From positions 1,178,001 to 1,242,000 of the forward strand of contig NZ_CP049916.1 in NCBI RefSeq assembly GCF_011578285.1: a stretch of 64,000 bases of DNA, read 5' to 3'. The notes under the pieces were generated by a model, which did not search any database, had not been told where the DNA came from, and worked only from the letters and a program-made list of their open reading frames with translations. Shown here piece by piece: positions 37,368 to 42,485 of the stretch. Positions within the stretch are counted from its first letter, which is position 1. Every line of letters starts with the position of its first letter. The position numbers and the translations under genes were made by a program. Origin of the DNA: Acinetobacter lanii (GTDB lineage: Bacteria > Pseudomonadota > Gammaproteobacteria > Pseudomonadales > Moraxellaceae).

Positions 37368-38363
37368 TTATTCGATCTCATGCACCGCATTAAATACATT
37401 TACAGGCTCAATGCGAATAATCTTTTTCCCAAAACTTCTCAGCCACCACACCAACTGAGAGGTAAAAGGCACAGAAGCGCTGACTTTAAAGAGCTCTTCT
37501 GAAATTTGAGTAATGGTCTGTTCTTTACTGAGCTGACTTTCAGTGAAATATAAGGCATCTGCTTCATTCATAATCAATTCAAGATCAACCATTTCTGTGG
37601 GTTGATTAAAATCAACACGAAAGCCGAGTGCACCTGAGTCGATATATTCATCAATATCGAAATTCACCGGATGTAAGGCACGACTGTCCAGCACATGGGC
37701 AGATTTAAAGCGATGTAAAGCAAAGGTTTGCACTTCGGTTTTATCATGACGGGTACAGATCAAATAAATGATCGAGCCTTTTTGCACCAAAGCCAATGGA
37801 TTTAAAATATAACTGCGGTCTTCACCCAATGGTCCTCGTGCGCGATAGACACATTCAATTTGCTTGTCTTGTAATAAACCTTCATAAATCGCTTGTTGTG
37901 CCGCTTTCTCGACCACAGGAGGAATCAGCGGTTGGCTGGCCGGTACAATGCGAACCCGATTGATCCATTGCCGCACATTGTTTTGGGTGGATAAGCTCCG
38001 CCGTGCCAAATCAAACCACGGATTCATTTCTTCAATCAGGCTCGGTGGAAGCAGATGTTTTAAATGTTCTTCCACCATCATAAAGGTAACCGCTTGTGAG
38101 CTGGTCATATGCGGTAGGCTTTGAATCGGAGCATCTGAGCGCCAGCGCCAACCTTGAGGAACAGTTTTATTGCTTTCGATCGGAAAGCGTTGTGAAATTT
38201 GGTTTAAGTCACGTTGAATCGTACGTAAACTGATTTCAATACCTTCACGTTCAAGGGTTTCTTGAAGTTCACGTGTGCCCATCCATTTCCCAGTGGACAG
38301 ACGTGAAAGAATTTGCCACTGTCGATAGAGGCTATTCGAGGTTTCTTTTTCTTGTGATGACAT
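37368..38363 (-). CDS. WYL-domain transcriptional regulator
   Basis: A 331-residue regulator. The N-terminal winged helix-turn-helix of the DeoR-like type (RQWQILSRLSTGKWMGTRELQETLEREG) is followed by a WYL domain at about residues 150-230 (EGLLQDKQIECVYRARG, then LNPLALVQKGSIIYLICTRHD) and a C-terminal WCX-like extension. WYL domains bind small molecules or nucleic acid ligands and control stress-related operons. It is divergent from the ATP-grasp/Anbu operon and is its most likely regulator (inference). Confidence 0.85.
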   Translation of the reverse strand: MSSQEKETSNSLYRQWQILSRLSTGKWMGTRELQETLEREGIEISLRTIQRDLNQISQRFPIESNKTVPQGWRWRSDAPIQSLPHMTSSQAVTFMMVEEHLKHLLPPSLIEEMNPWFDLARRSLSTQNNVRQWINRVRIVPASQPLIPPVVEKAAQQAIYEGLLQDKQIECVYRARGPLGEDRSYILNPLALVQKGSIIYLICTRHDKTEVQTFALHRFKSAHVLDSRALHPVNFDIDEYIDSGALGFRVDFNQPTEMVDLELIMNEADALYFTESQLSKEQTITQISEELFKVSASVPFTSQLVWWLRSFGKKIIRIEPVNVFNAVHEIE

Positions 38364-38429
38364 AAATGTATGAACAACGAAAAATTAAAATAAGTGACTC
38401 GATCACAATAAAAAAACTCGCTTAGATAA

Positions 38430-38444: not shown

Positions 38445-38607
38445 GTTTCTTTTTCTATATTTGGAAACAACTTAGTTGATTTAATTCTAACTTCGGCCAT
38501 TGAATTGGCTGAACTTCTGAGTATTAATAGCCATACAGCCAATGATTTTTAATTTGGCATTAAACTTGCTACCTACACTTACAATTGATAACAAATCAGA
38601 GGTTAGT

Positions 38608-40158
38608 ATGCTTAAAGAAGATCAAGATACAACTTCGGTAATAAATAATTTGAGCATGGAAAATAATACCCAAGCATTTGAAAAATCATTAGATATCGAA
38701 GTGAAACACAACAGTACTGCATACTTATTTGATCAATTAAAATCCGAGTTTTTTAATGAAATGTTGGATGATGAAGCGATATGTAATGAGGCTTCAAAGA
38801 AAATTGAAGCATGGCTATGTCAGCACAGTCTAGATGAATTAAAGGCACTGAATCATCAAGCCAAAGAACATTTTTTATATCAAGGGATTACTTTTGCCAT
38901 GTATGGTGAAGCGGAAGGCACTGATCGAATTATTCCCTTTGATTTAATTCCACGCGTCATCGCAAAACAACAGTGGAATAAAATGGAGCAAGGATGCTCA
39001 CAAAGGGTGCGTGCACTGAATTTGTTCCTCGATGATATCTATCATGATCAAGCGATTTTAAAAGAGAACATTATTCCTGCTGAACAAGTACTGAGTCATG
39101 AGGCTTATCAACCTTTAATGTATAAACATGATTTGAAAGGAAAAATTTATAGTCAAATCAGTGGAATCGACATTGTTCGAGACAAGAAAGGCGAATTTTA
39201 TGTGCTTGAAGATAATTTAAGAACACCATCAGGTGTGTCTTATATGTTGGAAAGTCGAAAGATTAGTGAAAAGCTGATGCCTGAACTGTGCCAAAAAAAT
39301 CAACTTTTAGGCATAGAGCAATACCCTAAGCTATTAAAAGAAATCTTAGAAGAAAATGCCTACGTGGATAATCCTTTTATTGTTGTGCTCACCCCAGGTC
39401 GCTATAACAGTGCATTTTATGAACATTGTTTTTTAGCAAGGGAAATGGATGTACCTCTTGTGACAGGAAGTGACCTTTTTGTTGAGAACAACAAGGTTTA
39501 TGTAAAAACAGTATGGGGCAAGAAGCAAGTTGATGTAATTTATAAGCGATTGGATGATGTTTTTATTGACCCATTGTGTTTTAAACCAGACAGTACCTTA
39601 GGTGTTGCAGGTTTAATGTCGGCTTATTTAAATCATAATGTAGTGATTGCCAATGCACCAGGTACGGGTGTCGCAGATGACAAATCAATTTATCCTTATG
39701 TTGATCAGATGATCGAATTCTATTTGGGTGAAAAACCCATTCTACACAATGTTCCGACTTATCAATGTCGTCAAGCCGATCAATTGGACTATGTGGTTCA
39801 AAATTTAGATCAATTGGTGGTAAAAGAAGCCCAAGGTTCGGGTGGATATGGTATGTTGATTGGACCTCAAGCATCGGAGCAAGAAATCGATGCATTTAAA
39901 ATCAAACTCCTCAAAAATCCACATCATTACATTGCACAGCCGACCTTAGCCCTTTCAGTTGCACCAACACTCACTGAAACCGGTTTAGGTGAACGTCATA
40001 TTGACCTTAGACCTTTTGTGCTGAGTTCGCCATTTAGAACGGAAATTGTGCCCGGTGGACTAACACGGGTGGCGATGCAACCAGGCTCTTTGGTGGTCAA
40101 CTCTTCACAGGGTGGTGGTATTAAAGACACATGGATTATTGATGCTTTGCACTCTTAA
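38608..40158 (+). CDS. Circularly permuted ATP-grasp ligase (type 2, DUF404/DUF407)
   Basis: A 516-residue predicted ATP-dependent amide ligase. Family landmarks are FAMYGEAEGTDRIIPFDLIPR, SGIDIVRD, YVLEDNLRTPSGVSYMLESR and, near the end, VKEAQGSGGYGMLIGPQA and ERHIDLRPFVL, which carry the ATP/Mg-binding residues of this permuted ATP-grasp fold. The ATG at 38608 has AGAGG five bases upstream and is preferred to the frame start at 38542. It is the first gene of the four-gene Anbu operon and probably forms a peptide bond on an unknown substrate. Confidence 0.88.
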   Translation: MLKEDQDTTSVINNLSMENNTQAFEKSLDIEVKHNSTAYLFDQLKSEFFNEMLDDEAICNEASKKIEAWLCQHSLDELKALNHQAKEHFLYQGITFAMYGEAEGTDRIIPFDLIPRVIAKQQWNKMEQGCSQRVRALNLFLDDIYHDQAILKENIIPAEQVLSHEAYQPLMYKHDLKGKIYSQISGIDIVRDKKGEFYVLEDNLRTPSGVSYMLESRKISEKLMPELCQKNQLLGIEQYPKLLKEILEENAYVDNPFIVVLTPGRYNSAFYEHCFLAREMDVPLVTGSDLFVENNKVYVKTVWGKKQVDVIYKRLDDVFIDPLCFKPDSTLGVAGLMSAYLNHNVVIANAPGTGVADDKSIYPYVDQMIEFYLGEKPILHNVPTYQCRQADQLDYVVQNLDQLVVKEAQGSGGYGMLIGPQASEQEIDAFKIKLLKNPHHYIAQPTLALSVAPTLTETGLGERHIDLRPFVLSSPFRTEIVPGGLTRVAMQPGSLVVNSSQGGGIKDTWIIDALHS

Positions 40159-40271
40159 TTCAGGATTTAAAGACTCGATGTGAAATCAAAGCTTTAAAAG
40201 CTTTAATTTCCGAGCATTTTTGAAACATTTTTATATTTATTAGAATATTTTTGAAACACCAGGAGGATGGC

Positions 40272-40874
40272 ATGATTATATTAAATAGTAATGCGCAAAA
40301 TATTTACTGGGTTGGACGTTATCTGGCACGTATTCAATATCTGTGCGGGCAATTTCCATTTCAAACCGATGAAGAAGCCAACCAATATTCACATGCATTT
40401 TGTTTGCCGGCGTTTAATGCCTCATCTTTAAATGAATTGGTACTGAACCCTGAGCAACCGGCATCATTCCATCAACAATTTCAATATGTCAAAAACAATA
40501 TTCAAGACCTGCGTGGTGTACTGTCGATTAAAGCCTACTGCGAATTAAAGCAGATGATTGATACCGCAAATGCCAATGCCGGTTATATCTGTACAGTGGT
40601 CGACGAATGCAGTGATGTACTTGAAGCCGAAAATGAAGATATCTTTTTGTTTTATAGCTTAGGTCAGTTGTTTGAAAATTTAGACCGTCAGATTCGTCTC
40701 AACCATGATATTGAAAAAACCATGCAGTCTCTGTCAGGCTTGATTGAGATGCTCAAAGCTAAAGGTTGGGACAGTGTAGATGAAGCATGGCAACATTTGA
40801 TTCAGCATCCGAACAGTAATAGCTTTTATCAGTTGCATGATCAAGTTCAGTACCTGTTTGAGGTGGCTGCATGA
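40272..40874 (+). CDS. Alpha-E domain protein (DUF403), short form
   Basis: A 200-residue, all-helical cytosolic protein of the alpha-E family, with the typical N-terminus ILNSNAQNIYWVGRYLARIQY and conserved arginine/glutamate helices (LGQLFENLDRQIRLNHDIEK). Stand-alone alpha-E proteins are usually about 300 residues, so this is a shortened version. The ATG at 40272 has a perfect AGGAGG six bases upstream. Its stop overlaps the next start by 4 bp. Alpha-E proteins always occur with permuted ATP-grasp ligases; their activity is unknown. Confidence 0.82.
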   Translation: MIILNSNAQNIYWVGRYLARIQYLCGQFPFQTDEEANQYSHAFCLPAFNASSLNELVLNPEQPASFHQQFQYVKNNIQDLRGVLSIKAYCELKQMIDTANANAGYICTVVDECSDVLEAENEDIFLFYSLGQLFENLDRQIRLNHDIEKTMQSLSGLIEMLKAKGWDSVDEAWQHLIQHPNSNSFYQLHDQVQYLFEVAA

Positions 40875-41650
40875 AATTGATGATTAATCATCAAACCCAC
40901 TATCAATATACCGATTGGGCGAAAAATAGTGTCCAATATATCAAAATGACGCCTCAAACCAACGCGCACCAAGCGGTGTTGACCTGGGGAGTGAGTGTGC
41001 CGGGTCAAACGCAGTCGCAATTGGATGCGTTTCAGAATATTTGGCTGACCAGTACACAGCGTTATGCCTACCAGAATATGACCATCATGGCGCAAGGTAT
41101 AGTGGAAATTAACCCACATACTCAATATGCGATTGATTTAGATCTTCTGCCTCAGATTTTCTTACAAAATACCGAGAGTACCCAATGCGATGCAGAAATG
41201 CGGGCATTTGCCCAGACTTATGTTCCTGACATTAGTCATGCCAATTTGGTCAAGCTTTCAGAAGCTTTAATTCAGCGTATGCCGTATATTAGCTATACCA
41301 CAGACGTACATACCAAGGCAGTTGATGCCTTTCATCAGCAACAAGGGGTATGCCAAGACCATAGTCATGTGTTTATCGGCATGTGCAAAGCTTTAGGGAT
41401 ACCGGCACGTTATGCTTCTGGGTATTTATATGTACCGGATAGTAGCCATTTGGCAAGCCATGCTTGGGCTGAAGTATTCTTAGATCATAAATGGCATAGT
41501 TTTGACATTAGTAATCAACTCTATACGCCTAGTTCACACATTTATGTTGCAATTGGGCGTGATTATTGGGATGTTGCACCTGTAAGAGGGGTTCGTGAAA
41601 AAGGTGGTATTGAGAGCATGAGTTCGATTGTGCAGGTACTGCCATGTTAA
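40871..41650 (+). CDS. Transglutaminase-like peptidase of the Anbu operon
   Basis: A 259-residue protein with a beta-sandwich N-terminal domain (about residues 1-85) and a transglutaminase-fold cysteine peptidase domain. The triad is complete: cysteine 161 in GVCQDHSH, histidine 197 in SHAWAEV, and aspartate 212 in SFDISN. There is no signal peptide, so it is cytosolic. Members in this context are predicted to cleave, or possibly transfer, the peptide made by the ATP-grasp ligase. It is translationally coupled to the alpha-E gene through an ATGA overlap. Confidence 0.88.
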   Translation: MKLMINHQTHYQYTDWAKNSVQYIKMTPQTNAHQAVLTWGVSVPGQTQSQLDAFQNIWLTSTQRYAYQNMTIMAQGIVEINPHTQYAIDLDLLPQIFLQNTESTQCDAEMRAFAQTYVPDISHANLVKLSEALIQRMPYISYTTDVHTKAVDAFHQQQGVCQDHSHVFIGMCKALGIPARYASGYLYVPDSSHLASHAWAEVFLDHKWHSFDISNQLYTPSSHIYVAIGRDYWDVAPVRGVREKGGIESMSSIVQVLPC

Positions 41651-41672
41651 AAAAATAAATGAAGGGTGTTTA

Positions 41673-42407
41673 ATGACTTATTGTTGTGCAATGCGTTTGA
41701 AAGACGGTTTGGTATTTATTAGTGATACTCGAACCAATGCAGGCGTCGATCATATTTCTGTATTTCGTAAACTGTATACCTTTGCAGTCGAAGGTGAGCG
41801 CTTTATTACGATTCAAACGTCTGGAAATTTGGCAACAACACAGGCGGTCATTGGACACCTTAAGAATCAACTGGATTTAAGACAAGAGCCTAATCTGTAT
41901 AGCGTGAACAACATGTTCGAGTTGGCAGAGTTGGTTGGACATACTTTAAAACGCGTCATTGCAGATGTGACAGCAGATCAACAAGAACAAAGTAATTATT
42001 ACTGTAGTTTGTTGGTGGGTGGTCAAATTCGTGGTGAAGAAATGCAGTTGTATAATATTTACCCGCAAGGAAATTTTATTAGCGCCACAGATGACACGCC
42101 GTTCTTTCAAATTGGTGAAAGTAAGTATGGCAAACCGATTTTAGATCGGGCTTTGCGTTATGACACTTCACTTTCAGATGCACTGCGTTATGGTTTGGTG
42201 TCTTTTGATTCGACCTTAAGATCCAATGTTTCTGTGGGAATGCCTTTGGATGCGATCATCTATAAAAAAGACAGTTTTGCATTTCCGAAAGGTAAAAGGA
42301 TCTATGAACAAGACCCGTATTTTAATCACATCAGTCGTGAATGGTCAGATATACTCAGACAAGGTTTAAATACTTTACCTGACCCTACAGAAGATTATTG
42401 GCAATAA
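41673..42407 (+). CDS. Anbu, bacterial proteasome beta-subunit homologue
   Basis: A 244-residue Ntn-hydrolase. The N-terminus MTYCCAMRLKDGLVFISDTRTNAGVD is the Anbu signature; removal of methionine exposes threonine 2 as the expected nucleophile, and FRKLYTF supplies the lysine equivalent to Lys33 of proteasome beta subunits. The ATG at 41673 is chosen over an earlier in-frame start because the nucleophile must be at the N-terminus. Structures of homologues show open helical or ring-like assemblies, and peptidase substrates remain unknown. It is the last gene of the operon, before a strong terminator. Confidence 0.9.
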   Translation: MTYCCAMRLKDGLVFISDTRTNAGVDHISVFRKLYTFAVEGERFITIQTSGNLATTQAVIGHLKNQLDLRQEPNLYSVNNMFELAELVGHTLKRVIADVTADQQEQSNYYCSLLVGGQIRGEEMQLYNIYPQGNFISATDDTPFFQIGESKYGKPILDRALRYDTSLSDALRYGLVSFDSTLRSNVSVGMPLDAIIYKKDSFAFPKGKRIYEQDPYFNHISREWSDILRQGLNTLPDPTEDYWQ

Positions 42408-42458: not shown

Positions 42459-42485
42459 AAAAAGCCCAATTTGATTGGGCTTTTT
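42459..42485. terminator. Bidirectional terminator between Anbu operon and alr
   Basis: AAAGCCCAAT/ATTGGGCTTT perfect 10-bp stem, TTG loop, A- and T-runs outside. Confidence 0.9.

Follow-up and report, generated by a model that had tools for sequence, protein, structure and literature searches.

An Anbu operon in Acinetobacter lanii with a short alpha-E protein, and Anbu genes kept without the ligase elsewhere in the genus

The Anbu operon of Acinetobacter lanii

We analysed a stretch of 64,000 nucleotides from Acinetobacter lanii (contig NZ_CP049916.1, positions 1,178,001 to 1,242,000; hereafter the window, whose own numbering is used throughout), and in it the genes at 38608-42407 for an ATP-grasp ligase, an alpha-E protein, a transglutaminase-like peptidase and the proteasome homologue Anbu. 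An initial annotation had read this region as a complete four-gene Anbu operon, and matches to Pfam profiles and solved structures now bear this out for all four genes. In our judgement the operon is likely to be a real and probably working system built of two separable arms. Its genes, and a promoter-like element ahead of them, are the following.

38608..40158, + strand: circularly permuted ATP-grasp ligase (CP_ATPgrasp_1/2), 516 amino acids (aa); Pfam profiles and alignment with 3n6x
40272..40874, + strand: short alpha-E protein, 200 aa; Pfam Alpha-E, with R20 and E135 kept and neither Glu-Arg (ER) pair complete
40871..41650, + strand: transglutaminase-like cysteine peptidase, 259 aa; Pfam, with C161, H197 and D212
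41673..42407, + strand: Anbu, a proteasome-like threonine N-terminal nucleophile (Ntn) hydrolase, 244 aa; Pfam Proteasome and solved Anbu structures
38555..38570, + strand: putative sigma-54 -24/-12 promoter element, TGGCAT-N5-TTGCT, at a conserved position 37 bp before the ligase ATG

The domains expected of such an operon, namely ATP-grasp, Alpha-E, transglutaminase and Proteasome, were all found in a Pfam search with profile hidden Markov models. The ligase scored 501.1 bits against CP_ATPgrasp_2 (curated cut-off 32) and 439 bits against CP_ATPgrasp_1, the peptidase 72 bits against Transglut_core and 46 bits against Bact_transglu_N, and Anbu 38.6 bits against Proteasome. The nearest solved structure to the ligase is 3n6x (E = 7.8e-169), with which it aligns end to end, the LEDN, VVKE.QGSGGYGM and RH.DLRPF stretches being conserved; residues within these stretches are presumably those that bind Mg-ATP. 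Anbu lies nearest to 5lox, 5loy and 5nyw (E = 7e-81 to 6e-78, with solved Anbu chains overall at 7e-81 to 3e-68), and its match to 5lox_A (E = 7.3e-81) spans residues 1-240 and is thus full-length. The peptidase was aligned with 3isr and, weakly, with 9crn, and its Cys161-His197-Asp212 triad, read as complete in the initial annotation, is indeed present in 63 of 63 sequences of the genus alignment. All 69 Anbu sequences of the genus alignment have Thr2 (Thr1 after removal of Met), Asp18 and Lys33. The broader statement that all visible active sites are intact holds for these two enzymes and is compatible with the ligase alignment; it fails for the alpha-E protein, which lacks complete ER motifs and is about one-third shorter.

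The genes are separated by 113, -4 and 22 bp, exactly the tight spacing first described, and the ligase gene occurs once in the 3.43-Mb genome. The same adjacency, common strand and order of ligase, alpha-E, transglutaminase and Anbu are seen in the loci of relatives with an intact operon, one of which (G019) carries an extra alpha-E gene. A longer ligase reading frame starting at 38542 is unlikely because the sigma-54 element would then fall within it. Taken together, the operon is very probably functional. Such four-gene Anbu operons are reportedly known from the work of Valas and Bourne (2008) and Iyer et al. (2009). The operon was also described by Fuchs et al. in 2017 (PMC5666114, seen in part), and the kinds and order of genes in A. 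lanii are identical to those published. Two features set Acinetobacter apart from the published operon: its alpha-E is reduced and has no complete ER motif, and the genus has repeatedly lost the ligase, the transglutaminase and alpha-E while keeping Anbu.

Anbu genes without an intact ligase

Across a sample of 175 genomes of the genus, 150 gave a match to Anbu and 145 a match to the ligase, leaving 144 with more than a remnant once the ligase of G037, which is riddled with stops, is set aside; the ligase match is split in G078, G109 and G163. In none of the 175 did the ligase occur without Anbu (sets compared by hand). Anbu without an intact ligase was found in six genomes, two of which retain alpha-E (G037 and G045) and four of which have Anbu alone (G044, G055, G131 and G173). 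Searched through their whole genomes, five of these six gave no ligase at another place and G037 gave nothing but its remnant, and a whole-genome search for alpha-E found none in the four Anbu-only genomes. All six lack a local transglutaminase at the Anbu locus, which for G131 and G173, as for G118 below, is the only place at which its loss was judged, and in G037 both ligase and transglutaminase have decayed beside Anbu.

Of the operon, G028, G144 and G170, which form one clade, and G152, which is not on our tree (loci L036, L049, L048 and L050), retain nothing but alpha-E, and Anbu, ligase and alpha-E are all missing from 21 of the 175 genomes, some of which are incomplete (G029 65%, G031 90%). 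Of 79 genomes searched directly for the transglutaminase, 67 have a copy in the operon, and these are the 67 with an intact ligase (hand comparison); for the remaining 77 genomes with a ligase, presence of the transglutaminase was read from the ligase-to-Anbu spacing, which is 1418-1622 bp in 76 and 938 bp in G118. The pattern fits losses in a nested sequence, first the transglutaminase, then the ligase, then alpha-E and last Anbu, the alpha-E-only genomes excepted. In the Anbu-only clade (G055, G131 and G173) an upstream alignment shows the kept upstream region joined to the end of the transglutaminase gene, which fits one deletion that took the ligase, alpha-E, most of the transglutaminase and the sigma-54 element, so that Anbu would now lie behind the operon's own upstream region.

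These genomes bear directly on the published idea of a peptide-tag cycle, credited to Iyer et al. (2009) in the parts seen of PMC5666114 and PMC6376114, in which the ligase attaches a tag or peptide, the transglutaminase and Anbu remove or recycle it, and Anbu has no other job. The initial annotation had taken up this idea, and both the constant company of Anbu wherever the genus has a ligase and the tight packing of the four genes speak for it. However, six genomes in about four lineages hold a selected Anbu (see below) without an intact ligase or local transglutaminase, some 25 genomes of the class sample match the ligase and not Anbu, and Fuchs et al. judged a role in peptide synthesis less likely in the sections seen of PMC5666114. 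We therefore regard the cycle as an improbable account of the whole system: as a description of all that Anbu does it falls, although adding a tag by the ligase and removing it by Anbu may describe part of the work of an intact operon. Given these copies without their partners, Anbu very probably has a role independent of the ligase, and removing the ligase product cannot be its sole one, as far as the gene content and substitution patterns of these genomes indicate.

Phylogeny and selection on the kept genes

In the analysis of INDEPENDENCE and selection, G055, G131 and G173 clustered on the tree and G044, G045 and G037 each fell elsewhere, so that Anbu without ligase arose in about four lineages. 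The tree was built from four neighbouring genes of 83 genomes by a quick method and several of its forks are open. Approximately unbiased (AU) tests reject three joint groupings of the lineages (p = 4e-5 to 1e-9); the groupings were chosen after the tree had been viewed, and G044+G045, the Anbu-only clade+G045 and G044+G037 lay outside the set.

Ratios of nonsynonymous to synonymous substitution (dN/dS) were obtained as simple NG86 counts and are rough, dS often exceeding 1. Within the Anbu-only clade, dN/dS of Anbu was 0.018 and 0.010 in two of the three pairs, the third being saturated, beside 0.012-0.017 for dnaB. The G037-G060 pair gave 0.032 versus 0.031 in the intact pair G060-G042, and G044-G018 gave 0.073 versus 0.096 for the intact pair G034-G018. 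All six ligase-less copies keep the catalytic Thr1, Asp17 and Lys32 in uninterrupted 244-aa frames, and they deviate at 0-2 of 86 invariant columns, as intact copies do (leave-one-out count). In a neutral simulation, 5% of runs at 0.1 substitutions per site and 0.45% at 0.2 still had an Anbu frame without stops. By these measures the ligase-less Anbu copies evolve under purifying selection.

Such values are hard to square with a view of the ligase-less genes as functionless relics on their way out. The decay of ligase and transglutaminase beside Anbu in G037, and the disappearance of the whole operon in several lineages, are what that view would lead one to expect; yet all six copies combine low dN/dS with an unbroken frame and catalytic residues, and the Anbu-only state is common to three related species. 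We hold it unlikely, slightly more so than the tag cycle.

The alpha-E genes of the alpha-E-only genomes are likewise intact and under purifying selection; in the absence of ligase and Anbu their dN/dS is 0.06-0.12, inside the range of intact operons (one near-identical pair omitted).

A putative sigma-54 element upstream of the ligase

Scanning for elements of the type TGGCAY-N5-TTGCW, with at most two mismatches and with GG and GC required, we found one ahead of the ligase in every one of the 56 intact operons scanned, in 53 of them at 37-48 bp from the ligase start and in the other three at 149, 153 and 303 bp. The same scan found such an element in 12 of 1120 mononucleotide-shuffled upstream regions and in none of 27 ligase-less genomes. 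The wider count for ligase-bearing genomes is 63 of 63, made up of these 56, G078 (counted apart owing to its longer scanned stretch), G024, G073, G034, G030 and G014, and G118; the scan thus covered 63 of the 144 genomes with more than a ligase remnant, G117 having been left out as its WYL gene lies outside its stretch. In the 64-kb window alone, one match against 0.40 expected is not significant, and the weight of the element accordingly comes from its conserved position across genomes and not from window statistics. Among named Acinetobacter loci with a ligase, a set that overlaps the 63 genomes, 50 of 51 have the element; A. baylyi DSM 14961 (L167) combines a complete operon with a perfect -24/-12 match. 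It was also found in 12 of 13 Pseudomonadaceae ligase loci, where the wider search span and higher GC content make for weaker evidence, and since it is clear upstream of the ligase in only one (L122) of 13 further loci of the class, it is not general there. Sigma-70-like promoters in the region occur at chance level (14 versus 13.9 expected).

Related gene kinds are under nitrogen control in other bacteria. In Pseudomonas putida, PP_2685 (proteasome beta subunit) and PP_2688 (circularly permuted ATP-grasp) are up by log2 4.44 (about 22-fold) and 3.99 (about 16-fold), respectively, on nitrate versus ammonium (table 2 of PMC8050072, seen in part). In Burkholderia cenocepacia, I35_5080-83, encoding DUF404/407, DUF403 and two transglutaminase-like proteins, are common targets of NtrC and sigma-54 according to the portion seen of PMC5491218. 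In contrast to these clusters, the evidence for Acinetobacter is the conserved -24/-12 element alone, no work on expression of this operon in Acinetobacter having stood out among the matches listed. We infer that the operon may be under sigma-54/NtrC control in this genus, and the ligase arm looks nitrogen-regulated, which would point experimenters to nitrogen limitation as a condition.

A reduced alpha-E protein

The alpha-E protein of the window scores 27.4 bits against the Pfam profile PF04168 (cut-off 20.8) and covers only positions 5-164 of 294, versus 296 bits for a full-length relative. Within the genus its length is 198-202 aa (69 sequences), compared with approximately 311-321 aa for the full-length relatives listed, and in all 69 about 100 C-terminal residues of the long form are lacking; in a profile comparison the short protein maps onto residues 1-212 of the long form (95.1%, E = 3.3e-8). 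The difference extends to the ER motifs. Among 47 long-form rows, drawn from the best 120 matches of a single query, which limits the comparison of long and short forms, the first motif has its Glu in 45 and its Arg in 47 and the second has both residues in all 47. The 69 Acinetobacter sequences have the first Glu in none and the first Arg in all, and the second Glu in 68 and the second Arg in none. An AlphaFold2 model of the short protein has a predicted local distance difference test (pLDDT) score of 92.8. Judged from its sequence, the alpha-E of the window is a short form derived from alpha-E and not a canonical member.

Two Alkanindiges loci encode the same short alpha-E without a complete ER pair. 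In Psychrobacter, a short alpha-E is fused behind the ligase in a single open reading frame of 794-836 aa (L212, L213, L215 and L216, assigned by domain), and of two such sequences read, both keep the first ER motif and one keeps the second. Pseudomonas tumuqii has a long alpha-E with both motifs. As the short form is common to these three genera, all of the Moraxellaceae (the family to which we take Acinetobacter to belong), alpha-E seems to have been shortened before it lost the motifs. Although Acinetobacter has two separate genes where Psychrobacter has one reading frame, the fusion is a hint that alpha-E is a subunit of the ligase, and we likewise infer a ligase/alpha-E complex.

A second, diverged alpha-E gene lies ahead of the ligase in G019 (L037:2138-2746) and in A. 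gerneri (L168), giving the order alpha-E, ligase, alpha-E, transglutaminase, Anbu (E-G-E-T-A).

A proposed reading: two arms on one transcript

The preferred reading is one of two separable arms. The ligase arm would consist of the ATP-grasp ligase with the reduced alpha-E as an accessory subunit, transcribed from a sigma-54 promoter of the nitrogen-limitation type. The ligase would use ATP to activate a carboxylate and then form an amide bond on its substrate, and the transglutaminase-like cysteine enzyme would belong to this pathway as well. Anbu would form the other arm, as a split-ring threonine hydrolase that is co-transcribed and so present whenever the ligase works, but that also acts on a separate substrate, in all likelihood a small amide or peptides, which exists without the ligase. 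Biochemical reports are available for other family members: epoxomicin binding and a split-ring dodecamer are reported for other Anbu proteins in the text seen of PMC5666114, and release of phosphate from ATP is the only activity reported for the Yersinia bercovieri ligase in that seen of PMC6376114. A match to HslV (TIGR03692) was found in none of the 175 genomes of the genus, while 9 of 14 controls, E. coli included, were positive, and so Anbu is the only one of these two peptidase kinds found.

A more specific version of this reading, to which we give about an even chance, holds that two systems share one transcript. An amide-ligase arm for nitrogen starvation (ligase and alpha-E, with the transglutaminase helping) could be lost without Anbu, whose role would be more indispensable and may replace the absent HslV in Acinetobacter. 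The alpha-E of Acinetobacter and Alkanindiges would be one repeat plus a stump that keeps the Arg of the first ER motif and the Glu of the second, as if one salt-bridge pair across the internal two-fold had been removed together.

Several observations weigh against the two-arm reading. For the promoter, A. albensis (L180) has the full four-gene operon and no recognisable element in its 10.7-kb locus, none of seven Psychrobacter loci, scanned over the same wider span as those of the Pseudomonadaceae, has one, and the disappearance of the element along with the ligase is partly trivial because the two lie 37 bp apart and a single deletion can remove both. For the composition of the ligase arm, G118 retains the sigma-54 element and the ligase and has lost the transglutaminase from its operon, so that ligase and transglutaminase are not an inseparable pair; our earlier proposal that they are always lost together was dropped for this reason. 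The survival of alpha-E in four genomes beyond both ligase and Anbu means that it must also do something alone, which a ligase-subunit view leaves unexplained. As for the independence of Anbu, dN/dS in G045 (0.050-0.076) slightly exceeds that of intact neighbours (0.037-0.055), making a mild relaxation of selection possible. Outside the genus a lone Anbu is rare: among 369 genomes of the class, 87 have Anbu and 107 have ligase relatives, and only five of the 87 (G196, G244, G344, G448 and G521) lack any ligase match, of which G448 alone is clear, the others comprising two partial weak matches, one 78% complete genome and one contig end. Independence from the ligase may therefore be special to Acinetobacter. 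The sample also contains the roughly 25 genomes with ligase relatives and no Anbu match mentioned above, a number obtained by comparing the sets by hand. Finally, in the work of Piasecka et al. (2018; PMC6376114, seen in part), Y. bercovieri Anbu showed no peptidase activity on standard substrates, and the operon proteins did not interact specifically with one another.

That Anbu mainly protects the cell from a harmful product of the ligase or transglutaminase, ligase-less species meeting the same compound from outside or from neighbours, would explain why no ligase in the genus goes without Anbu, but the class has ligase relatives without Anbu and no product is known, and we think this about as unlikely as the relic view.

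Returning to the two-arm reading, the operon, the tag-and-remove hypothesis and the open question of function are already in print, as the published Anbu work covers all three; the initial annotation called substrate and purpose unresolved, in agreement with what was seen of PMC5666114, PMC6376114 and PMC8665760, the last of which (Fuchs et al. 2021) states that the function of Anbu is not established. The reduced alpha-E and the natural gene losses form an informative new variant. Neither the reduced alpha-E nor the losses that spare Anbu are mentioned in the parts seen of those three papers, and among the matches listed from the open-licence literature none dealt with a short alpha-E, with the operon of Acinetobacter or with an Anbu that lacks its operon partners. 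Structures of Anbu have been solved, yet no substrate or function is known for it; species that naturally have Anbu alone would let its activity be studied free of the other three proteins.

Neighbouring features

One further gene flanks the operon on its upstream side.

37368..38363, - strand: divergent gene for a WYL-domain regulator, a frequent neighbour that is not shown to be an operon member

This gene is present in 23 of 27 searched genomes lacking Anbu or ligase, mostly beside alr or dnaB. At 38404-38418 lies CACAATAAAAAAACT, which is conserved at the same place upstream of the divergent WYL gene in other genomes and is probably, going by its position and fit, a -10 region from which the WYL gene is read on the opposite strand. 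As a control site for the operon it was dropped for this fit and for its distribution: allowing up to two mismatches, it stands upstream in 43 of 56 genomes with an intact operon and also in 4 of 16 that lack the operon. On the downstream side alr, dnaB and rplI converge on the operon. Between Anbu and the converging alr, at 42460-42485, lies the inverted repeat AAAAGCCCAA-TTTGA-TTGGGCTTTTT, absent from the output of a terminator scan and read by eye as a putative two-way terminator.

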